Shown: positions 6,136-51,509 of the stretch, in pieces
How the letters are laid out: every line of letters begins with the position of its first letter
How positions within the stretch are numbered: position 1 is the first letter of the stretch
From: Candidatus Synechococcus calcipolaris G9
GTDB lineage: Bacteria; Cyanobacteriota; Cyanobacteriia; Thermosynechococcales; Thermosynechococcaceae
Length of the DNA stretch: 64,000 bases
Reading direction: 5' to 3'
Assembly: GCF_029582805.1 (NCBI RefSeq)
Contig: NZ_JAKKUT010000002.1
Coordinates: 1,637,747 to 1,701,746 of the forward strand
Translations under genes and position numbers: made by a program
The notes under the pieces: generated by a model
The model's input: only the letters and a program-made list of their open reading frames with translations
Told to the model about the DNA's origin: nothing
Database searches by the model: none

Positions 6136-8385
6136 TTAACCAATAATGTGTCCTTGGGGTAGCTCCATGTTACCCGTCACATAATAGTTCCACATGGCTT
6201 CATAGGCATTCTCCACCTCTCGCGTAAATTGCTGGGCATCCCACAAAGGTGCATACTGCTTTGCTTTTTTAAGCTTCCACGTTACCTGTTTTCTCAGGTC
6301 TTCATCTGTTCCCAAACGAATGCCCCACTCAACATACTCTTCATCTGTCCAAGCAATGCCTTCAGAAACCCCAGCATTCACTAGAAATGTATAGCTATTG
6401 CGAGCTGAAAACTGTTCCCCCACCCGGGTCACTAAGGGTATTTCCATCCAGAGAGCTTCAAGGGTTGTTGTGGCCCCATTATAGGGGTAGGTATCTAAAA
6501 TAACGTCGGCGATCGCCAAGTTTGCTCGGTGTTCTTCAGAGGTCGCAACAAAGGGTAAAAATTTAATTCGTTCCCGATTTACCTCCTCCCCATCGGCCAA
6601 TTGATAAAAGAACTCTTGTACTGCCCCTTGATCTGCTTTACCCTTAATTAAAAGATAACTATTTGGAACCTGATTTAAGATTTTGATCTGTAATTGCGCC
6701 AAATGGGGACTGCGCTTATTACCTCGTTGTCCACTGAAATAAACAATGGCATCATTGGCAATCTCTAAAGATTGTCGAGTTAAGCTAGGTGTAGAAATCT
6801 CAAAACCTTCAACGGCCAAATAAGTATGGGGCAAACGCCAGATTTTCTCTGCATAGTACGTTTGGGCATCATCGGGTAAAACGTAGGGATCTGCAAGGAA
6901 GTAATCCATACTGGGCAAACCGGTCGCATCAAAACCTAGCCATGTTAACTGAACGGGGGAAGGCTTCAGAGCCATTACTTCGTAGCTAGTATGAAACGTA
7001 AGGCTATCTAGATCAATTAAAATATCAATTTGATCACCATAGATTTTTTGAGCAATCTCCATGACATTCATATCGCCTCTAAAGGTGCTGACATCCTGGT
7101 GTTCATACCAATCTTGAATGGGATCGAAGCGTTGCTTTTGATAGGCAACAAAATAGATGTAAATAGAAAATTTTTCCTTATCATGGTTTTTGATTAACCA
7201 ACGTGCCAGAAAACCAACGGGATGGGTTCTAAAACAACTACATAGATAACCGATCCTTAGGGGGCGTGTTTTTAAGGTTCTAAGGTCATGACTAGCAAAG
7301 GAGAAATGCGTTGGCTGGTCTCCATATATACGAGAAAGATTTGTTTGAGAAAGACTAGCGATTTTATTTGAAAGTAATCGATTTGATTTTGGCTGATCCT
7401 CAATGTGGGGAAAAAGAAAACAGGGTGTTGACATAGATAATATTTCATTTGAATGATTCATGTGCATTCCTGAATCACACAACTGATGTAATAGATCTTT
7501 TAGGGTGCCATAAACTTGAATTGCCTTTTGCCAATAACCACCCCCACCCAACAGAGCAAGAAGCAGCAGGTGTTTAGTGAACATTTGATCTATTAACTGT
7601 GTTGCATTTTCATAGGCCATTTCAGCAATTTCAATGGCATTGGGGTAATCCGCAACACCTATATAAATGGATGATAAAAGTTTTAACGTCGTTAGATTTT
7701 TAGAATCCAAATCAAATGAAAGCTTTGCATACCACAGAGCCACTTCTGCATTATCTTCAACACAACGAATTCGGATGACACTTTGATTGAGCAAAGGGAC
7801 TAAATGATTACATTTATCTGGAGTATGTTTTAATATATAGTTAGCAGAAATCCGAACAAAATCAAATGTTTGATGAGATAGAGAATCTTTTTCAAGGATG
7901 AAAGATAGGGTTTGGAGCAGTAAGGATAGATCAAATGCAAGGATAAAATCTTGCTCAAAAAGAGAACATAGCTGCTTGACTGCAAGCCGATCAGATGCTT
8001 GATAGGTCTGCAATATTTCTAACTGGGCCATTTTAAGCAAATTGTTGATATTCTCGTGATTAAATTCATGAATATATCCCCTGAGTATCCAGGCGATTTC
8101 ATGATTTTCAGTAAGTTTTTGATCTTCGGCAACTCTTTCTAATAGATCAAGCAGTTGTGTTTTTAGTTCTGAATCATTTCCATCTATTTCTGATAAGGCA
8201 TACATCCATGCTGCTTGAGCATCTAATTCATTTTGATTGAGCAGAAAACATAGGCCAGCATAAAGATAGCTTTTGAGATTTTGCGGTTCAACTTCAAACC
8301 ATTCATGGCACAGTTCAAGGCCATGGGAGTACTTCTTAGATAAAATGAGTTCTTCTATTTGCTTTTCAAAGGTTGCTTGATTCAT
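6136..8385 (-). CDS. TPR protein with O-GlcNAc transferase (GT41/SPINDLY-type) domain, copy 1
   Basis: A 749-residue protein. Residues 1 to about 340 are helical and TPR-like, although the repeats are degenerate. The C-terminal half is a GT41 O-linked glycosyltransferase domain: it starts near residue 378 with LRIGYLCSCFRTHPVGFL (the His is at the position of the active-site histidine of OGT), continues with DILIDLDSLTFHTSYEV, PVQLTWLGFDATGLPSMDY, and the UDP-sugar region ILDTYPYNGATTTLEALW near residue 632. Such enzymes attach a sugar to Ser/Thr of target proteins in the cytoplasm. It is paralogous to the gene directly upstream (21 bp gap), so the two are probably co-transcribed. The C-terminal 47 residues before KAK are identical in the two proteins. 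Acceptor protein and donor sugar are unknown; the nearby pilin is one candidate. Confidence 0.85.
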   Translation of the reverse strand: MNQATFEKQIEELILSKKYSHGLELCHEWFEVEPQNLKSYLYAGLCFLLNQNELDAQAAWMYALSEIDGNDSELKTQLLDLLERVAEDQKLTENHEIAWILRGYIHEFNHENINNLLKMAQLEILQTYQASDRLAVKQLCSLFEQDFILAFDLSLLLQTLSFILEKDSLSHQTFDFVRISANYILKHTPDKCNHLVPLLNQSVIRIRCVEDNAEVALWYAKLSFDLDSKNLTTLKLLSSIYIGVADYPNAIEIAEMAYENATQLIDQMFTKHLLLLALLGGGGYWQKAIQVYGTLKDLLHQLCDSGMHMNHSNEILSMSTPCFLFPHIEDQPKSNRLLSNKIASLSQTNLSRIYGDQPTHFSFASHDLRTLKTRPLRIGYLCSCFRTHPVGFLARWLIKNHDKEKFSIYIYFVAYQKQRFDPIQDWYEHQDVSTFRGDMNVMEIAQKIYGDQIDILIDLDSLTFHTSYEVMALKPSPVQLTWLGFDATGLPSMDYFLADPYVLPDDAQTYYAEKIWRLPHTYLAVEGFEISTPSLTRQSLEIANDAIVYFSGQRGNKRSPHLAQLQIKILNQVPNSYLLIKGKADQGAVQEFFYQLADGEEVNRERIKFLPFVATSEEHRANLAIADVILDTYPYNGATTTLEALWMEIPLVTRVGEQFSARNSYTFLVNAGVSEGIAWTDEEYVEWGIRLGTDEDLRKQVTWKLKKAKQYAPLWDAQQFTREVENAYEAMWNYYVTGNMELPQGHIIG

Positions 8386-8406
8386 TTTTGTTCATTAATC
8401 ATAGAG

Positions 8407-10647
8407 TTATCCTAAAGTATGGCCCGATGGCAGTTCCAGATCACCGGTCACATAATAGTGCCACATGGACTGAAACGCAGACTCAACCTCTTGGGTAAAC
8501 TGACGCGCATTCCAGAGAGGAGAGTGGTGCTTTGCTTTTTTAAGCTTCCATGTCACCTGTTTTCTCAGGTCTTCATCCGTTCCCAAACGAATTCCCCACT
8601 CTACATACTCTTCATCTGTCCAAGCAATGCCTTCGGAAACCCCAGCGTTCACTAGGAATGTATAGCTATTGCGAGAAGCAAATTGTTTACCCACCCGGGT
8701 TACTAAGGGAATTTCCATCCAAAGCACTTCTAGGGTCGTCGTTGCCCCATTATAGGGATAGGTATCTAAAACAACATCGGCAATAGGGAGATTTCCCCGG
8801 TGTTCTTCATCGGAGGGGTAAAGGGGCAAAAATCTGAGGCGATCGCCTGTAATGCCCATTGACTCAGCAATTTCCAGAAACCAAGCTTGTAATGCATCCT
8901 GTTGTCCAGCTCCTTTAATGAACAAATAGCTATGGGGAACATTTCCAAGTATCTGCATCTGGAGTTCTGTCATACGCCGATTACGCTTGGCCGCCCGTTG
9001 ACTGGTTAAAAAGATCACGGCATCACTGGAAATATCAAAGTCTTGGCGATGCACGGTGGGATTGTTTGCCGTGAAACCATTTACAGCAACATAGGTATGC
9101 GGGAGTCGCCAAATTTTCTCACTGTAGTAGGATTGGGCCTGCTCTGGCAAAACATAGGGATCCCCAAGAAAGTAATCCACCGCCGGTAAGCCTGAGGCAT
9201 CAAATCCAAGCCAACTGATCTGAATGGGGGCAGGTTTTAGGGCTAAAATCTCACAATTTAGATCAAGAGTAACGCTATCTAAGTCGATTAAAATATCAAT
9301 TTTATCTTCGTTAATTTTATCGGCCAATTTATAGCTATCATGCTCACCGTAAAAGACTTTATTCGACTTTTTGATATACCAGCTTTGCCAGGCATCCGGT
9401 TTTTGAGGAAGACCTGCACCGTAGTAGGTATTAAACTCAAAGCGATCGCCATTGAAATATTCGTATAATCCCCACGCCAAAAAACCAATGGCATGACGCT
9501 TTAAGTGAGTTGAGAGAAAACCAATTTTGATTTTTTTCGATCCTATTTTTGCAGGTGTTTTGGCCTGATATTTTTTCCTTTTATCCGCACCATATATTTC
9601 AATATTTTCTTGACATAAAGACATTAATTGATTAAAAATAGGTTTATTGTACTGCGGGCGATCTTCCAGATGGGGCGGAGATAGCAGCAAGATAAATAAA
9701 CAACGAACCTGATGGCGTTCTAAGTTCAAGGGCCATTCCTGGAGCAGTTGACCTAAAAGTACATTTTGATGTTCTAGGGTAGCTTTAATTTCTTGTTCAT
9801 AACTACCAGCAGCCACTAAGGATTGGAGAATGGCATGGTTGGCATATAGGCGATCTGCGAGTTCCTCTTGAAGAGCAAATAGATCCTTTGCCGCCCCAAT
9901 AGATTTCTCATAGTCACGGGTAAAGCGGTAGAGGCCAGAAAGAAAACTCAGTAAGGTTGGATCTTTTGGCCATGCCTGTCGTCCCAATTCGGCATAGTCA
10001 ATAGCTAAGGAATACATATCCTGACCAAAACCAAGATTGCGAGCAGTGACACGCAGTAATGGCAACAGTTTAGGTAAATAATCAGCATATACTAAGCACT
10101 GCTCAACAAAATTAAAACTTTGGGGTAATCCAGGTACCCTAGATAAAACTAGATCCAATACATCTTGAAGTTGCTCAACGTTAATCTCATCTATAGTTGC
10201 CTGAGAAATTAAATGAGTCAGCGGCTCAATTTGCGGACTATCCCAGGAAAAACACTCCTGCTTAAAGGCAAGTTGGCATAGGGCTAGACTGTTTTTGATA
10301 TTATCGGGTTGAAATTCTTGGATGTAGCCACGAATTAACCAGGCATCCATCCACTGTTGTTGATCTTCCTTCGCGGTAGCATGGCTTTCTAAAATATTAA
10401 TGAGATCGCCATAATAGGATTCTATCGATTCGACGGACTCTTCCAGAATAGGAGCCATCCAGGCCATTTGGGCCTCAGTTTCTTCTCCCTGGAGTAACAG
10501 TGCCAATCCAAGATAACCATAATAGATTGGTTCTAAGGGTTCTATTTCAATGGTCTTTTGGCAACCCTCAATAACCTGAGCATAATCCTGGCGATCGAGG
10601 GCATCCATTAAGTCTCTAAAACCGAGTCCTCTAAAATTCGAGGTCAA
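8407..10647 (-). CDS. TPR protein with O-GlcNAc transferase (GT41/SPINDLY-type) domain, copy 2
   Basis: Paralogue of the next gene downstream, 746 residues, with the same plan: a degenerate TPR half and a GT41 half from about residue 377 (KIGFLSTHLKRHAIGFLAW, then DILIDLDSVTLDLNCEI, PIQISWLGFDASGLPAVDY and VLDTYPYNGATTTLEVLW). The longest frame starts with TTG at 10647 and would overlap the upstream DUF29 gene by 17 bp; an in-frame ATG at 10608 is an equally reasonable start and would remove the first 13 residues. The TPR halves of the two paralogues are much more diverged than their last 120 residues, which suggests a local sequence exchange. Likely part of an operon DUF29 - OGT copy 2 - OGT copy 1. 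Confidence 0.85.
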   Translation of the reverse strand: MTSNFRGLGFRDLMDALDRQDYAQVIEGCQKTIEIEPLEPIYYGYLGLALLLQGEETEAQMAWMAPILEESVESIESYYGDLINILESHATAKEDQQQWMDAWLIRGYIQEFQPDNIKNSLALCQLAFKQECFSWDSPQIEPLTHLISQATIDEINVEQLQDVLDLVLSRVPGLPQSFNFVEQCLVYADYLPKLLPLLRVTARNLGFGQDMYSLAIDYAELGRQAWPKDPTLLSFLSGLYRFTRDYEKSIGAAKDLFALQEELADRLYANHAILQSLVAAGSYEQEIKATLEHQNVLLGQLLQEWPLNLERHQVRCLFILLLSPPHLEDRPQYNKPIFNQLMSLCQENIEIYGADKRKKYQAKTPAKIGSKKIKIGFLSTHLKRHAIGFLAWGLYEYFNGDRFEFNTYYGAGLPQKPDAWQSWYIKKSNKVFYGEHDSYKLADKINEDKIDILIDLDSVTLDLNCEILALKPAPIQISWLGFDASGLPAVDYFLGDPYVLPEQAQSYYSEKIWRLPHTYVAVNGFTANNPTVHRQDFDISSDAVIFLTSQRAAKRNRRMTELQMQILGNVPHSYLFIKGAGQQDALQAWFLEIAESMGITGDRLRFLPLYPSDEEHRGNLPIADVVLDTYPYNGATTTLEVLWMEIPLVTRVGKQFASRNSYTFLVNAGVSEGIAWTDEEYVEWGIRLGTDEDLRKQVTWKLKKAKHHSPLWNARQFTQEVESAFQSMWHYYVTGDLELPSGHTLG

Positions 10648-11062
10648 TAGATTTCTCCATAATATCTATTATTGTGTAGGGGCAATCTTGGGGATAGTCC
10701 AAGCCAGTTTGCAGGATGGCATCTAATCGGGCATTTCGATACATTTTATTTATCCATTCTTGGCAGAGATACTTCTTCAGACTGGGACTATCTTCGAGAT
10801 AAAAATCGAGATTATTTCTTTCCCATTGAATCGTAACTTGCCAACTGCGGGAACGCTTACTTTTCTGAAAATCCCATTTGAGTAAATGATGTAAAATCAA
10901 ACGTAGACTGCTTAATAACTTATCTCGTTCTCGCTTTGACAAATCCCTGATTTCCGTCACTAAATGATCAATATCGAGGTCGCCAAAGCATTTTTCCTCT
11001 AGCGTTGTGGCCATGAGTTCAGCCCAACGAGCATAGTCTTCTGTATAGAGATCATCAGACAT
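10631..11062 (-). CDS. DUF29 family protein
   Basis: A 143-residue protein with the DUF29 pattern: LYTEDYARWAELMATTLEEK at the N-terminus, a central DIDHLVTEIRDLSKRERDKL helix and a C-terminal segment with ILQTGLDYPQDCPYTI (the family usually ends with a similar PxxCPY motif). DUF29 proteins are very common in cyanobacteria, often in clusters; their function is unknown. The gene runs into the GT41 gene (overlap of 17 bp if that gene uses TTG), suggesting translational coupling. The full-length C-terminus contrasts with the shortened DUF29 gene just upstream. Confidence 0.85.
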   Translation of the reverse strand: MSDDLYTEDYARWAELMATTLEEKCFGDLDIDHLVTEIRDLSKRERDKLLSSLRLILHHLLKWDFQKSKRSRSWQVTIQWERNNLDFYLEDSPSLKKYLCQEWINKMYRNARLDAILQTGLDYPQDCPYTIIDIMEKSIDLEF

Positions 11063-11116
11063 TGTTAATCTAGTGGAGGATTGTAAAAGTATTTTCTTGA
11101 AAATAAAAAATCATAG

Positions 11117-11464
11117 TTAATTGAGCGTTGTATTGCCGTAGGGTTTTAAGCTAGGGCTATCCTGAATTTTATCCTTAATTTGTTTGCGAACGTTACGGTT
11201 CTCTGCTTTCCAATGCGCGTTATTTTTTTCAATCTCGCTGTGCCAGTAGGTCAGTTTAAGTAAATGTTCCCATAGCTTTCTTAGTAAACTCTTTAGCGTT
11301 TGCTTTAGACGACGACTCAAATCTTCAACCTCATCAATCAGGTATTGCCAATCAATTGGGTCGATATTCTGATGTTTCAAGGAATCGACCGTAGCGAGAA
11401 TCCACAGATGATAATCAGTGTGATATAAGTCTTTGCTAGGTGTTGAGGAGATTTGAGTAACCAT
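11117..11464 (-). CDS. DUF29 family protein, C-terminally truncated
   Basis: A 115-residue DUF29 protein: it has the family N-terminus (LYHTDYHLWILATVDSLK) and the central helix DWQYLIDEVEDLSRRLKQTL, then ends after DSPSLKPYGNTTLN. The companion gene and the family generally run on for another 30 residues to a CPY-type motif, so this copy has lost its C-terminus, probably through a frameshift or small rearrangement near 11130. It lies 54 bp upstream of the intact DUF29 gene on the same strand. Whether the shortened protein is functional cannot be judged. Confidence 0.7.
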   Translation of the reverse strand: MVTQISSTPSKDLYHTDYHLWILATVDSLKHQNIDPIDWQYLIDEVEDLSRRLKQTLKSLLRKLWEHLLKLTYWHSEIEKNNAHWKAENRNVRKQIKDKIQDSPSLKPYGNTTLN

Positions 11465-11520
11465 CTGATCGCCCTATTCTAGGGCCAAGCGAGGTCTTAA
11501 GGGAGCAAAAGTGTCTTGAA

Positions 11521-45960: not shown

Positions 45961-47376
45961 ATGCCCGTTTCTCCTTCGCCGACATTTGATCTGAGTGCCC
46001 AACACCAATTTCGACAGCAGTTGGTTGCGGGATTAACCCAGGCCCGTAATCAGGGGTGCTTATTTTTAAGTATCAGTCGTGACCTGCCCCCCATTGATCC
46101 GCTCCTTGCCCTAGCGGGATTATCTGACTGTGGGATGGATCCGCAGGCGGATTACTTTTATCTGGAGCAGCCGGGTACGGGGATGGCGATCGCCGCCTTG
46201 GGGGCATTACGCACCTATACCGCCGAAGGTTGCCAACGCTTTCAGGATGTGCGCCATTTTTGCCAGACCACGTTTGCCCAAATATTTTGCCTAGATGGGG
46301 GCCACCCCCGTATTTTTTGCCATTTTACGTTTCACGATCGCCCCACGGGCCACCAAGGAACCAGTGCCAGCCGGGCAATTTTACCCCAGTGGCAGATTCA
46401 TCAGCGCGATCAGCAGGTGCAACTTACCCTTAATTGTGATGTTTTACTGGAGCCTGGGGAGATCGATCGCCTCTGTGGGCAATGGCAGCGGATATGGGAA
46501 CATCTGCAAACGTTGCCCCCAACCTTTGACATCGAGTCGGTGATGGTTCCCACCATTTCGTTGCCTAATCTCACGGTTCAGCATCAGGGGTTTGTTCGTG
46601 GTGTCCATACCGCCCTGAAGGTGTTGCAAACGGGGGAGATGGAAAAATTAGTTTTGGCCTGTGCTGCGGATATTACTGCTCCTCGTCCCTTTTCCTGGGA
46701 AGCGACTCTGCAAAATCTTCGCCACCACTACCCCAACTGCTATTTGTTTAGTGTGCGCTGCGATGGTGGCTCTACGTTTGTGGGAGCTAGTCCTGAACGT
46801 TTGGTGAGTCTGGAGCAGGGGGTGTTAACGGCCGATGCCTTGGCCGGTTCAAGTCCTAGGGGGGGCGATCGCCACCAGGATCAAGCCCTCACCACCGCCC
46901 TGTATCACAGCGAAAAAGACCGCCACGAACATCAGGTGATTGTTCAGTTTCTCAGCCATACCTTGAAAAATTTGGGTTTGTTGATTCCACCCCCAGGGGA
47001 ACCCCAAGTGCTCAAGTTGGCCAATATCCAACACCTGCAAACCCTGATCCGGGCCACTCCCCATCCGGCGGTACATCTCCTGGATATTTTGGCCGCTCTG
47101 CATCCCACGCCAGCGGTGGCCGGTTATCCACGGGCGATCGCCTACGAATGGATGCGCCAACTGGAAACCTTTGAGCGGGGAATGTATGCCGCCCCCCTAG
47201 GTTGGGTGGATTGCAACGGTGAAGGAGAATTTATTGTCGGTATTCGTTCTGCCCTATTACAGGGAACCATGGCACGGCTCTATGCAGGGGCGGGAATTGT
47301 GCGCGGATCAGACCCGGAACGGGAATGGCAGGAGGTGCTTTTGAAGTTACAGGCCCTTGTTTCGGCGATCGCCTAA
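45961..47376 (+). CDS. menF: isochorismate synthase
   Basis: Makes isochorismate from chorismate for phylloquinone, the photosystem I quinone. The 471-residue protein has the chorismate-utilising fold in its C-terminal half: GEMEKLVLACAADI, FVGASPERLVSL, LAGSSPRGGDR, EKDRHEHQVIVQFL, HPTPAVAGYP and GRGMYAAP-like FERGMYAAPLGW. The N-terminal half is weakly conserved as usual. Standing alone here, it is not next to menD. ICS rather than anthranilate or aminodeoxychorismate synthase is indicated by HPTPAVAG and DRHEH. Confidence 0.9.
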   Translation: MPVSPSPTFDLSAQHQFRQQLVAGLTQARNQGCLFLSISRDLPPIDPLLALAGLSDCGMDPQADYFYLEQPGTGMAIAALGALRTYTAEGCQRFQDVRHFCQTTFAQIFCLDGGHPRIFCHFTFHDRPTGHQGTSASRAILPQWQIHQRDQQVQLTLNCDVLLEPGEIDRLCGQWQRIWEHLQTLPPTFDIESVMVPTISLPNLTVQHQGFVRGVHTALKVLQTGEMEKLVLACAADITAPRPFSWEATLQNLRHHYPNCYLFSVRCDGGSTFVGASPERLVSLEQGVLTADALAGSSPRGGDRHQDQALTTALYHSEKDRHEHQVIVQFLSHTLKNLGLLIPPPGEPQVLKLANIQHLQTLIRATPHPAVHLLDILAALHPTPAVAGYPRAIAYEWMRQLETFERGMYAAPLGWVDCNGEGEFIVGIRSALLQGTMARLYAGAGIVRGSDPEREWQEVLLKLQALVSAIA

Positions 47377-47557
47377 TAAAATTGATACTGTATTCCAGAA
47401 AATAATTATGGCATCCTCAGCCGGTTATCCCTTAAACCATGACCCATAAAGACCAATCCAGAGGGCGATCGACCTTCCCAGGCATTGGCTTATCGTCGTC
47501 ACCTTCCTGCCCTAGGGGCCATTTAGATATATTTTTCTGTTATTCCATCGTATTAAC

Positions 47558-47586
47558 TTGCAAAATAGACGAGAGCAAGGTATAAT
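47558..47586 (+). promoter_or_regulatory. near-consensus sigma-70 promoter of the GTPase pair
   Basis: TTGCAA at 47558-47563 and TATAAT at 47581-47586 are separated by exactly 17 bp, a strong group 1 sigma promoter. Transcription should start near 47593, within a run of ten A. AGGGA at 47599-47603 is the ribosome-binding site of the first GTPase gene. Confidence 0.8.
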
Positions 47587-47613
47587 TCCAAAAAAAAAAG
47601 GGACAATAGCATA

Positions 47614-48456
47614 ATGATGAATATTGACTCAATCGAATTTCTGGAAAAACTAAAAGAGAAGTTGACTGAACGCCATGAAAACGAATTTACGTTTTTAATT
47701 CTTGGAAAGACAGGTGTAGGTAAATCTAGCACGATTAATAGTCTAATGGGGCAAAATATTGCTCCTGTAGGAGATTTCGAGCCTACAACAATGACGGTTG
47801 AAAAATATACTACTGAAATGTCAGGAATAAATTGCAATATTATCGACACCCCAGGATTATGTGATGACTTACCTGAACATGGTAACGATGAAAAATATTT
47901 AGAGATGGTTAGAAGTAGTGTAAAGAAGGTTGATTCACTGTGGTTTGTAACTAAGTTGAAAGATAAAATAGGTTTTGCTGATAAGAGAGTAATACAATTG
48001 ATTTCTAATGTTTTTGGACAAGACATTTGGAAGCAAGCTATTATAATCCTTACCTATTCTTGGGATGTATCAGATGAAGAAAAATTTAAGGAAGGATATA
48101 AAATAAGAACTCGACTCATAAAAGAAGAAGTAAAGAAATATACTAACGATGAAATTGCATCGGGTATACCATCGGTAGCTGTTGATAATACAAACACATT
48201 AACACCAGATGGAAAAAATTGGCTTGGCGAACTTTACACAGAAGTATTCTTGAGAATGTCTGAAAATGGAGCTATTCCTTTCTTGATGGCAACAGTGAAT
48301 AGAATTAATCCTGTTGAGCCGTCTAAATCGGAAACAGTAAAATATATATACTTAGACAAAAATCAAGAAGAGAAAGTTAAGAAGAAATCCAAGAACCTTT
48401 TAGAACAGGTAGCAAAGTTCGCAGGAGTTATAATCAAGGGGTTTTTTGGTTTTTAA
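47614..48456 (+). CDS. AIG1/Toc34-like GTPase, first of pair
   Basis: A 280-residue GTPase. G1 is GKTGVGKSS (residues 31-39), G2 a Thr in EPTTMT (about 58-60), G3 DTPGLCD (78-84); G4 is not NKxD but ILTYSWD, the degenerate form seen in the AIG1/GIMAP and Toc34/Toc159 group. The C-terminus (LLEQVAKFAGVIIKGFFGF) is an amphipathic hydrophobic helix suited to membrane contact. The DNA is AT-rich (about one third GC, against about half in neighbouring genes), lacks HIP1 sites and uses AAA, ATA and AGA codons freely, signs of acquisition. Another ATG one codon downstream (47617) is possible. Three bases separate its stop from the second GTPase gene. Confidence 0.85.
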   Translation: MMNIDSIEFLEKLKEKLTERHENEFTFLILGKTGVGKSSTINSLMGQNIAPVGDFEPTTMTVEKYTTEMSGINCNIIDTPGLCDDLPEHGNDEKYLEMVRSSVKKVDSLWFVTKLKDKIGFADKRVIQLISNVFGQDIWKQAIIILTYSWDVSDEEKFKEGYKIRTRLIKEEVKKYTNDEIASGIPSVAVDNTNTLTPDGKNWLGELYTEVFLRMSENGAIPFLMATVNRINPVEPSKSETVKYIYLDKNQEEKVKKKSKNLLEQVAKFAGVIIKGFFGF

Positions 48457-48459
48457 TTC

Positions 48460-49365
48460 ATGAAGCAATATTTAGTTATTGGTCGAACTGGTGCTGGTAA
48501 ATCTAGCCTCATTAATCATGTTATTGGACAGAAGGTTACTGAAACCTCCGAGTATGTAGCTTGCACTCGTTTTGTCTCTCACTATATACTGAACACCCCT
48601 GAAAAAAATATCTGTTTGATTGATACTCCAGGTTTATGTGATGAGATCGATGAAAGTTATGATATTGCTTACTTGAATCAAATCATCTCCAAAGTAAACC
48701 TTAATCATCTCTATGGAACTCTTTATGTAACCCCACTTAATGATTATTTTCGATCAGATGATATGAGAGCCTTTCGCTTATTAGATTCGGAACTTGGCAG
48801 TCATATATGGGCGAATTGTAAGATCGTATTTACTTTTTCTATGTCCGTGCCAAGGGAAGAGCAGATAAATCAAGCCGATCGCCGAATTAAGCAAATAGAA
48901 AATTATTTTAGTGATGAGATTAAAAAATCTTGTTTTTTAGGTTTTAGCAATTATTTCCTCATTGACTGTGTAAAGGAACCTAGCAATAACACCCTATTAA
49001 CAGCATTACTGAATGATGCTAGTGATAAAATTGACGACAAATATCTAGCGGAAATACATGGTACTGCATCTTATTTTTATAAGATGTCCGCAAAAATTAA
49101 GTTGTATCACTCAGATCATGGTGCAACCCTTGTAGATGCATCAATACTAGAAAGTAATTACATCAATACAATAAGTTCAATAAAAAGTGTTCAGTCTTCT
49201 TCTGATCTCACAAACTTAATTAAACAATTAGAGGCTTTGAAGATAAAGGTGAGTCGTTTTAATCATAGAAAAGAAAAGTATAGATGGTCAAATTCTCTAG
49301 AAAATGAGGTGATATCCAAGTTGAAAAATATTGCTAGAAGTATTAACGAAAAAACAAAAATCTAG
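48460..49365 (+). CDS. AIG1/Toc34-like GTPase, second of pair
   Basis: A 301-residue protein whose GTPase domain begins at the very N-terminus: VIGRTGAGKSSLINHVIG (G1 at residues 8-16), a Thr in ACTRF (G2), CLIDTPGLCDEI (G3) and VFTFSMS at the G4 position, again without NKxD. Residues after about 190 form a helical, Lys-rich domain (KTSA-free; LEALKIKVSRFNHRKEKY) with no membrane helix. It is related to, but clearly diverged from, the first GTPase, so the pair may work as a heterodimer in the way AIG1/Toc GTPases dimerise through their nucleotide sites. Same AT-rich composition. Its 3' end is 21 bp before the truncated repeat copy A. Confidence 0.85.
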   Translation: MKQYLVIGRTGAGKSSLINHVIGQKVTETSEYVACTRFVSHYILNTPEKNICLIDTPGLCDEIDESYDIAYLNQIISKVNLNHLYGTLYVTPLNDYFRSDDMRAFRLLDSELGSHIWANCKIVFTFSMSVPREEQINQADRRIKQIENYFSDEIKKSCFLGFSNYFLIDCVKEPSNNTLLTALLNDASDKIDDKYLAEIHGTASYFYKMSAKIKLYHSDHGATLVDASILESNYINTISSIKSVQSSSDLTNLIKQLEALKIKVSRFNHRKEKYRWSNSLENEVISKLKNIARSINEKTKI

Positions 49366-49386
49366 TATCCATATAATCCTTTTAAT

Positions 49387-49635
49387 CCTTTCCTGCAAGA
49401 ACAATATCACGTTAAAGAACTCGGAATTTTCGGTTCCTTTGTGAGACAAGAACAAACAGAAGCCAGTGATGTAGATGTCCTCGTTGAATTTTCCCAGACT
49501 CCGAGCTTGTTGAAATTTATTAATTTAGAGAACTATCTCAGTGATAATCTTGGGGTCAAAGTTGATTTGGTTCATAAGGCAGGCTTAAAACCCCGGATTG
49601 GTGAACGGATTTTGGCCGAGGTTATTTATCTATGA
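49387..49635 (+). pseudogene. 5'-truncated MntA-like nucleotidyltransferase antitoxin
   Basis: Same protein as the intact gene at 50985 (FGSFVRQEQTEASDVDVLVEF carries the GSx10DxD site) but the start codon and first 15 codons are missing. Translation could begin only internally, for example GTG at 49441, which removes the catalytic Gly-Ser. It is a broken duplicate. Confidence 0.8.
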
Positions 49636-49691
49636 CTCAGCGGCAGATTCAGGATATTTTAGATGCTGTAGCCGATCTATTCTCAGTTTAA
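49632..49691 (+). pseudogene. 19-codon stub of a HepT-like toxin (copy A)
   Basis: Starts with ATG overlapping the antitoxin stop (ATGA) and reads MTQRQIQDILDAVADLFSV before TAA. The sequence looks like the first helix of a HEPN/DUF86 toxin; the remaining 90 or so residues, including the catalytic RX4H, are gone. The same stub occurs at 51275. Confidence 0.65.
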
Positions 49692-49721
49692 CCTGCCATT
49701 ATTATATAGGTTTATTTAGGG

Positions 49722-49976
49722 ATGTTTAGTAGACATCAAATCTTGTCCGCGATTAGTGGGTATCCCTGGAAAATATGCCTGTTGATGCTAGCGATCGCCG
49801 CCTGTGCTCCAAATCATGTCCAGCAATGTCAGCAAATTGGCCAGGCAACCTATACCGTCATGGCAAGGGTAAAGGGGTTTATGACGATCAAGTTGGTGAC
49901 GAATCCGCTTGTTTCGGCGATGCTGCCGGAATTGTATGGACAGTTGCCGGAGCCAGGGCACTTGGCAAGGTTGTGA
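49722..49976 (+). pseudogene. truncated duplicate of the lipoprotein gene (copy A)
   Basis: The first 50 codons (MFSRHQILSAIS, then lipobox LAIAAC) match the intact gene at 51365, after which similarity stops near 49866 and the frame runs into unrelated sequence for about 35 codons. It could still produce a short lipoprotein, but the conserved domain is absent. Confidence 0.75.
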
Positions 49977-50048: not shown

Positions 50049-50360
50049 ATGGCCATCAAAACAGGTTTAGGAATCCCTGATCTCTTAGATGAGCAACGAG
50101 ATGAAATCCTTAAAATTGCAGCTAAACATGGTGCTTATAATGTGCGAGTGTTTGGTTCTGTAGCACGGGGAGAAGCAGACGAAGAGAGTGATATTGATTT
50201 TCTGGTAGATTATTCCCTGGATCGCATTAGCCCTTGGTTTCCGGCGGGTTTGGTATTGGATTTAAAAAAGCTGCTGGGGCGTAAGGTGGATGTAGCAACC
50301 GAGGCTGCTCTAAAGGAACGAATCCGGGAGCAGGTCTTAACTGAGGCAGTTCCGCTATGA
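50049..50360 (+). CDS. mntA: MntA-type nucleotidyltransferase antitoxin
   Basis: A 103-residue minimal nucleotidyltransferase: VRVFGSVARGEADEESDIDFLVDYS has the GSx10DxD metal and nucleotide site, and a third Asp lies in RKVDVATE. In MntA/HepT modules this protein adds AMP to a tyrosine of the toxin and so neutralises it. GGAGGTGA a few bases before the ATG gives a strong start. Its TGA overlaps the ATG of the HEPN gene (ATGA). The module is complete and lies between the two copies of the 480-bp repeat. Confidence 0.88.
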   Translation: MAIKTGLGIPDLLDEQRDEILKIAAKHGAYNVRVFGSVARGEADEESDIDFLVDYSLDRISPWFPAGLVLDLKKLLGRKVDVATEAALKERIREQVLTEAVPL

Positions 50361-50695
50361 GGAGTGATACTGAACGATTAAGGGATATGTTAGAGGCGAT
50401 CGCTCAGATTGAACGATATGCAACGCGAGGACAAGATACATTTAATCAGGATGAACTCTTGCAAGTTTGGATAATTCATCATCTGCAAATTGTCGGTGAA
50501 GCCGCTAGTAAATTATCAGAGTCTTTTCTCACACAGCACTTAGAAGCTCCTTGGCCTGCGATCGTAGAATTTAGAAATATTCTAGTTCACGAATACTTCA
50601 GAGTAAATTTACAGATTGTCTGGCAAATTGTGGAACAGGATTTACCTAATCTCAAAGCCATAATCACAGATATTTTGCATAATGATTCAAGCTAG
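50357..50695 (+). CDS. hepT: HepT-type HEPN ribonuclease toxin
   Basis: A 112-residue all-helical DUF86/HEPN protein. The RNase motif RX4H is RNILVH, followed by EYFRV (the Tyr after it is the usual AMPylation position RX4HXY). The N-terminus RSDTERLRDMLEAIAQIERY is family-typical. As a dimer such proteins cut RNA or tRNA; AMPylation by MntA silences them. The gene overlaps its antitoxin by 4 bp, and both appear intact. Confidence 0.88.
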   Translation: MRSDTERLRDMLEAIAQIERYATRGQDTFNQDELLQVWIIHHLQIVGEAASKLSESFLTQHLEAPWPAIVEFRNILVHEYFRVNLQIVWQIVEQDLPNLKAIITDILHNDSS

Positions 50696-50984: not shown

Positions 50985-51278
50985 ATGAAAACATTAAGAG
51001 AAATAATGAACTGGCTAAAAAATCATAAACCTTTCCTGCAAGAACGTTATCACGTTAAAGAACTCGGAGTTTTCGGTTCCTATGTGAGACAAGAACAAAC
51101 AGAAGCCAGTGATGTAGATGTCCTCGTTGAATTTTCCCAGACTCCGAGCTTGTTGAAATTTATTAATTTAGAGAACTATCTCAGTGATAATCTTGGGGTC
51201 AAAGTTGATTTGGTTCATAAGGCAGGCTTAAAACCCCGGATTGGTGAACGGATTTTGGCCGAGGTTATTTATCTATGA
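50985..51278 (+). CDS. MntA-like nucleotidyltransferase, orphaned antitoxin (copy B)
   Basis: A 97-residue minimal nucleotidyltransferase of another subtype (LGVFGSYVRQEQTEASDVDVLVEF, GSx10DxD intact; VDLVHKAGLKP for the third Asp). It keeps its full N-terminus, unlike copy A. The toxin gene that should follow has been reduced to a 19-codon stub at 51275, so the antitoxin is now without its partner. It might still modify the intact HepT of the neighbouring module, but that is speculation. Confidence 0.82.
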   Translation: MKTLREIMNWLKNHKPFLQERYHVKELGVFGSYVRQEQTEASDVDVLVEFSQTPSLLKFINLENYLSDNLGVKVDLVHKAGLKPRIGERILAEVIYL

Positions 51279-51509
51279 CTCAGCGGCAGATTCAGGATAT
51301 TTTAGATGCTGTAGCCGATCTATTCTCAGTTTAACCTGCCATTATTATATAGGTTTATTTAGGGATGTTTAGTAGACATAAAATCTTGTCCGCGATTAGT
51401 GAGTATCCCTGGAAAATAAGCCTGTTGATGCTAGCGATCGCCGCCTGTGGTTCAAATCATGTCCAGCAATGTGAGCAAATGGGCCGTGCAACTCAAGATG
51501 TCATGGCTG
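51030..51509 (+). repeat. 480-bp direct repeat, copy B
   Basis: The more complete partner of copy A, in the same orientation 1643 bp away. Recombination between the copies would delete the intact mntA-hepT module and one repeat. Confidence 0.9.
51275..51334 (+). pseudogene. 19-codon stub of a HepT-like toxin (copy B)
   Basis: Identical in protein to the stub in copy A (MTQRQIQDILDAVADLFSV), with the ATGA overlap to the antitoxin retained. Because both copies share the truncation, the toxin was lost before the segment was duplicated. Confidence 0.65.

Follow-up and report, generated by a model that had tools for sequence, protein, structure and literature searches.

An operon of two AIG1-family GTPases in a cyanobacterium and its relatives in three bacterial phyla

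Identification of a two-gene AIG1 GTPase operon

We identified an operon of two intact genes on the + strand of a 64-kb window (the whole stretch of DNA that was analyzed): gene A (47614-48456, 280 aa) followed by gene B (48460-49365, 301 aa). As stated in a preliminary description of this DNA, the genes are 3 bp apart, the stop of A being at 48456 and the start of B at 48460. Nowhere else in their own genome is the AIG1 profile cut-off exceeded, other matches being weak and below it. The stretch had also been described as more AT-rich than its surroundings, which proved correct: its GC content is 33.2%, compared to 48.5% for the window, and over a length of 1.8 kb the GC content falls this low nowhere else in the window. 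A second AT-rich stretch, with 37-45% GC and few HIP1 sites, was observed at 6500-11500. Two further features of the preliminary description are present but carry less weight. The near-consensus promoter (TTGCAA-17-TATAAT, 47558-47586, + strand) matches the consensus at 10 of 12 positions; however, 8 promoter-like sites were found in the region against 8.8 expected by chance, so it is suggestive only. HIP1 sites are indeed missing from 47365 to 49791, but this is one of three gaps of at least 2.4 kb in the window. As neither feature is above chance, we rejected both as signs of foreign origin.

Both proteins belong to the AIG1 family (Pfam PF04548, cut-off 27 bits), A with 82.1 bits (E=4.5e-23) and B with 53.2 bits (E=3.1e-14). 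Each contains a G1 motif of the GxxxxGKS type (GKTGVGKSS in A, GRTGAGKSS in B), a G3 motif DTPG and a non-canonical G4, in which the N/TKxD sequence is replaced by ILTYSWD in A and VFTFSMS in B. A and B share 34% identity over 158 aa, confined to the G domain, and are thus different GTPases. AlphaFold2 models, made from alignments of relatives, had a pLDDT of 88 and pTM of 0.87 for A and a pLDDT of 87 and pTM of 0.63 for B. When A was compared with solved structures using Foldseek, pea Toc34 and Arabidopsis Toc33 were found first and GIMAP2/7 next; sequence searches agreed, with about 28% identity to Toc34/Toc33 across about 220 residues. The best match of B was GIMAP7, followed by Toc34. Profiles, models and phylogeny therefore identify A as an AIG1-family GTPase with a Toc34-like G domain and B as a second member with an additional C-terminal helical domain, as the assignment of two different GTPases with degenerate G4 to the AIG1/GIMAP/Toc group had proposed.

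A hydrophobic tail had been noted at the C-terminus of A. It is present in the alignment (48397-48453, + strand, LLEQVAKFAGVIIKGFFGF) but short, and was modeled with low confidence (pLDDT about 50). Most A relatives have a longer C-terminal stretch with a glycine zipper (e.g., GAIAGPAGAAIGGAIGGVIGFFGGLFG in L051); the window protein has no zipper, its remaining tail is just FAGVIIKGFFGF, and the hydrophobicity of this tail is the weakest in the family. A few A relatives have an additional hydrophobic region at the N-terminus. This region, found in L066, L069, L079 and L081, is rich in Gly and Ala (GLPGVIL..GAAAIT.ALA.LGGP.GMLGG).

A mobile helical domain in B

The usual B relatives have 187-201 aa and consist of a G domain without extra parts. 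In the window protein the G domain is followed by a helical module of about 115 aa (49012-49350, + strand), designated C-domain, which is missing from the other 15 B proteins. Its helical and Lys-rich character had been recognized beforehand and was supported by the model, in which residues 193-300 are helical at high confidence, and by composition, the C-terminal part of B having 15 Lys in 117 aa. Searches with the C-domain against Pfam gave no family above the cut-off. Foldseek with the whole B model gave no structural match for the domain, since the G domain dominates the result. Conserved motifs of the C-domain include YHxDH, SRF/Y-H, KYRWS and LE-EV-KL.

Whole-genome searches detected the C-domain in 14 of 386 cyanobacterial genomes, with one copy in the genome of the window. 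The domain occurs behind a zinc ribbon and a Ser/Thr kinase domain, in two copies in L141 (682-2793, - strand) and in one copy in L144 (1477-2931, - strand). In L090 (1492-2439, - strand) it is located 3' of an LRAT-like domain, whose Pfam match is weak (E=0.028) and which contains the motif RFNCEHWARLV (NCEHW); this protein is a possible effector partner. Small proteins (L091, L092 and L145-L149) also contain the C-domain. It is thus a mobile domain common to kinases, an LRAT-like protein and window B. Its occurrence in an NTPase, in kinases and in a possible effector is reminiscent of the adaptor domains in the conflict systems of Kaur et al. (PMC7159879), a likeness that we draw by analogy and without a claim of membership. 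MNT genes were located near L091, L092 and the window C-domain; a direct link between the two was rejected as coincidence because the MNT proteins were unalike by eye and toxin-antitoxin (TA) genes are common.

Loss of the arginine-finger residue in both proteins

The alignment column corresponding to Arg133 of Toc34 and Arg130 of Toc33 contained Arg in 37 of 38 A proteins and 15 of 16 B proteins, the two exceptions being the window proteins. The column could be assigned to Arg130 of Toc33 because solved structures of the R130A mutant have Ala at this position. In window A the finger region (KLKD-KIGFAD, 47953-47982, + strand) has Lys instead of Arg and a one-residue deletion. In window B (PLNDY-FRSDD, 48733-48762, + strand) the Arg column is a gap, again with a one-residue deletion; a second Arg is retained two columns past the missing position and may compensate for the loss. 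In pea Toc34 the R133A mutation lowers the dimer fraction and reportedly abolishes GTP hydrolysis (PMC12973003). GIMAP2 is membrane-anchored and does not hydrolyze GTP alone, and is stimulated by soluble GIMAP7 (PMC8201404). As some GIMAPs cannot hydrolyze GTP on their own, the absence of the finger Arg is no bar to AIG1 membership: the arginine finger is common in the family but not required.

Compared with its relatives, the pair in the window is thus derived: the finger Arg has been lost from both proteins, the zipper has disappeared from A and a C-domain has been attached to B.

Occurrence and evolution of the A-B pair

Scanning about 85,000 genomes yielded 32 loci, to which whole-genome searches and a plasmid match were added, and B-like genes were sought beside every A relative. 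The order A then B, on the same strand and with a spacing of -16 to +50 bp, was found at 15 loci besides the window, in three phyla (Cyanobacteria, Chloroflexota and Bacteroidota). The hosts included Nostocales, Microcoleus and related filamentous cyanobacteria; pairs beyond cyanobacteria were detected in an Anaerolineae MAG (L064) and a Saprospiraceae MAG (L073). One pair, whose genes overlap by 8 bp, is located on a Calothrix plasmid (L048). A divergent pair was found on a Prochlorococcus single-cell contig (L079), its B-like protein having a very long branch. At this locus (7692-10621) the A-like gene overlaps the gene of a B-like GTPase of 553 aa with a response-regulator receiver domain at its C-terminal end. 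Several related loci contained A without an adjacent B, suggesting that A can work by itself or with a partner encoded elsewhere. Within the phylum, A was present in only 10 of 386 genomes; among 97 near relatives, the window genome included, it reached strong scores in 3. One relative (L097) has decayed and contains stops.

Searches with B were less productive. Scanning the genome collection with B alone gave no relatives, the patterns being too specific, and no B relative was found in scans of viral contigs. For A, the viral contigs gave weak GTPase matches, at 26-45% identity and limited to a portion of the G domain. The sole match in a phage collection (MT837830) was rejected as a GIMAP; it is bacterial DNA with an MnmE-like gene.

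In a phylogenetic tree of 54 proteins, a single branch separated all A from all B proteins (SH-aLRT 99), and window B had a long branch (1.83). Pairwise distance matrices of A and B were correlated (Mantel r=0.86 for n=14 pairs and 0.72 for n=11 after removal of near-duplicates, permutation p=5e-5). This co-divergence supports contact between A and B but does not prove it, because shared vertical descent contributes. Two separate clades with correlated divergence suggest that A and B form a heterodimer, which we consider probable from this correlation and by analogy with known AIG1 dimers.

Genomic context

The preliminary description placed the operon next to TA modules, which we could verify. 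An intact MNT/HepT pair is located at 50049-50695, and an MNT fragment (49383-49682) corresponds to an intact copy at 50985-51278. The fragment is part of a 467-bp direct duplication (97% identity, 49383-49849 and 51026-51492, 1643 bp apart) that encloses the MNT/HepT pair; the first copy, on the + strand, comprises an MNT nucleotidyltransferase gene that lacks its 5' part, followed by the beginning of a lipoprotein-like gene. Its truncation lies where it meets gene B, at the 3' junction of the AT-rich pair (49383), which suggests recombination at this point. The gene upstream of A encodes a chorismate-binding enzyme, and the neighbors scanned in the window further include NDK, TerC, HIT, NTP_transf_2, HepT, a YHS-domain protein and lipoprotein-like ORFs. 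No known defense genes were found beside the pair apart from the TA modules, which are common in cyanobacteria. Signs of the suggested mobility of the pair were few: one plasmid copy was detected, while searches for a tRNA in the 40-58 kb part of the window and for a target-site repeat flanking the pair found neither. A search for an empty site via the upstream gene found no genome of the same genus among those searched, and the neighbors differed.

A survey of the relatives, proposed earlier as a check for recurrence near defense genes, gave a mixed outcome: the pair does recur and PIN-domain ORFs are enriched, but PADLOC gave only isolated single matches on the neighbors. The PIN-domain ORFs accounted for 13 of 124 ORFs within 2 kb and at most 1 of 111 beyond 3.5 kb (36 loci; Fisher p about 0.002, counted over loci that are not phylogenetically independent). 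A divergently oriented ATPase of the HTH + NB-ARC/NACHT type (STAND-type) was located 170-251 bp from A at five of the loci searched and at none of the remaining ones (L058 2523-3959; L078 5899-7323; L083 2-337; L086 2362-3543; L087 2214-3416); the L083 copy runs off the end of its locus, and at least two members of this set nearly duplicate others.

Single, syntenic homologues, which the preliminary description had set against its reading, do occur for part of the family. An A-only subgroup is located just downstream of a phosphoketolase gene, on the same strand, at nine Nostocales loci (L055, L057, L059, L061, L062, L068, L070, L071 and L080), and A-B pairs flank alaS at three loci. The 737-aa neighbor in the former group was rejected as glutamine synthetase III, as Pfam identified it as phosphoketolase. 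With neighbors this stable, some members of the family seem more likely to have a physiological role than a mobile one.

Discussion

Several known systems resemble the A-B pair in part. Toc34/Toc33 is the best solved match of A by both sequence and fold, and the Toc GTPases (Toc34/Toc33/Toc159), which work as homo- and heterodimers, likewise combine an anchored with a partner GTPase. However, A scored far below the curated Toc cut-offs (82.3 vs 421.6 bits for TIGR00991 and 75.7 vs 660.7 bits for TIGR00993), the window pair lacks the finger Arg, and no import channel is linked to it. GIMAPs share the AIG1 profile, GIMAP7 is the best fold match of B, and the GIMAP2/GIMAP7 couple similarly has a hydrophobic C-terminal tail on one partner while the other is soluble. 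Identity to GIMAPs is nevertheless only 15-20%, the pair is bacterial, and B has an unrelated C-domain. The bacterial dynamin-like system LeoA/LeoBC of PADLOC, known as Eleos, also consists of operon-linked membrane GTPases, and a weak GTPase-domain similarity to LeoBC was detected (E=1.3e-11). This match covers only profile positions 58-161 of 601, whereas a member should match over its full length (about 560-600 aa), the dynamin-like helical part included; a dynamin stalk would not fit into proteins of 280 and 301 aa.

Previous work has described both AIG GTPases that belong to bacterial conflict systems and TRAFAC GTPases that occur in pairs, the DO-GTPases (Kaur et al. 2020, PMC7159879). 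The DO-GTPase/GAP1 systems of that study have two paralogous TRAFAC GTPases per operon, membrane links and small helical adaptor domains, as has the window pair in part. In contrast, the latter is AIG1, with no DO-GTPase family among Pfam matches up to E=1 and no GAP1 gene among the scanned window neighbors. The iSTAND vWA-MoxR ternary systems (PMC7159879) include bacterial AIG GTPases in predicted conflict systems, but there AIG is a single effector domain rather than a two-gene pair; neither vWA nor MoxR partners were found among the scanned window neighbors or the recurring neighbor families of relatives. In addition, GIMAPs are said to derive from antiphage systems (PMC11249213). In the literature searched, most subscription papers being outside it, we found no account of an AIG1 A-B pair, a finger-less form or the C-domain.

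These comparisons suggest that the A-B operon encodes a heterodimeric AIG1 switch with a stress- or invader-responsive role at the membrane, in conflict or defense, an interpretation by analogy to which we give an even chance. The conflict or defense role taken by itself is plausible and the likeliest that we see, though at somewhat less than even odds. In such a switch, A would be the membrane-side GTPase, as its family carries a glycine-zipper tail, and B the soluble partner. Like those of Toc34 and GIMAP dimers, their G domains would face each other with the nucleotides in between; once GTP is bound, an assembly would form at the membrane, to be dismantled when the partners activate each other's hydrolysis. 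In the window pair, the loss of the activating Arg from both proteins would give a slower-hydrolyzing switch with less self-activation, and its output may have shifted from membrane insertion of A to recruitment of another protein by the C-domain of B.

Three other explanations have to be weighed. A pair of housekeeping or metabolic membrane GTPases, serving envelope or thylakoid maintenance or regulating a neighboring pathway with no defense role, would account for the stable chromosomal positions beside phosphoketolase and alaS; it is unlikely in view of the very patchy distribution, the presence in few species of distant phyla, the low GC in the window and the PIN and STAND neighbors. We regard as still more doubtful a TA-like or abortive-infection module, in which membrane insertion of A would kill the cell and B would restrain A until infection. 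The bicistronic layout, the hydrophobic glycine-zipper tail of the A family, the TA-rich surroundings and the divergent STAND-type ATPase near A at five loci are in line with it, but A often occurs without B alongside, and window A has the least hydrophobic tail of all. Least probable of the three is that the window pair is decaying, finger and zipper having been lost as the system became defunct, with the fused C-domain and the truncated copy of MNT as recombination debris in a TA-rich island: finger losses in both partners, the missing zipper tail, the long B branch and the existence of a decayed relative would fit, as would the MNT duplicate at the 3' junction, but the frames are intact across 581 codons, P-loop and DTPG are kept, the C-domain retains its conserved residues (YH.DH, KYRWS), and it forms an in-frame fusion whose fold was modeled at high confidence.

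Returning to the heterodimeric switch, its most extended form can be put forward only tentatively. The pair might represent a bacterial two-gene AIG1 heterodimer system, distributed in at least three phyla and similar to GIMAP2/GIMAP7 in having an anchored GTPase and a soluble activator, of which the window version would be rewired, both activating Arg residues being lost and the soluble partner carrying a hitherto undescribed adaptor domain in common with cyanobacterial Ser/Thr kinases, which would link GTPase, kinase and effector proteins in one signaling network.

In animals and plants, AIG1 GTPases serve in immunity, and the Toc GTPases run chloroplast protein import. A bacterial two-gene version would be a tractable model for GTPase pairing and membrane action, for which natural variants are available, with the finger kept or lost, the zipper kept or lost and an adaptor gained. 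The A-B family further provides a bacterial outgroup for studying how Toc and GIMAP GTPases arose, and the new helical domain of window B appears to connect GTPases with kinases.
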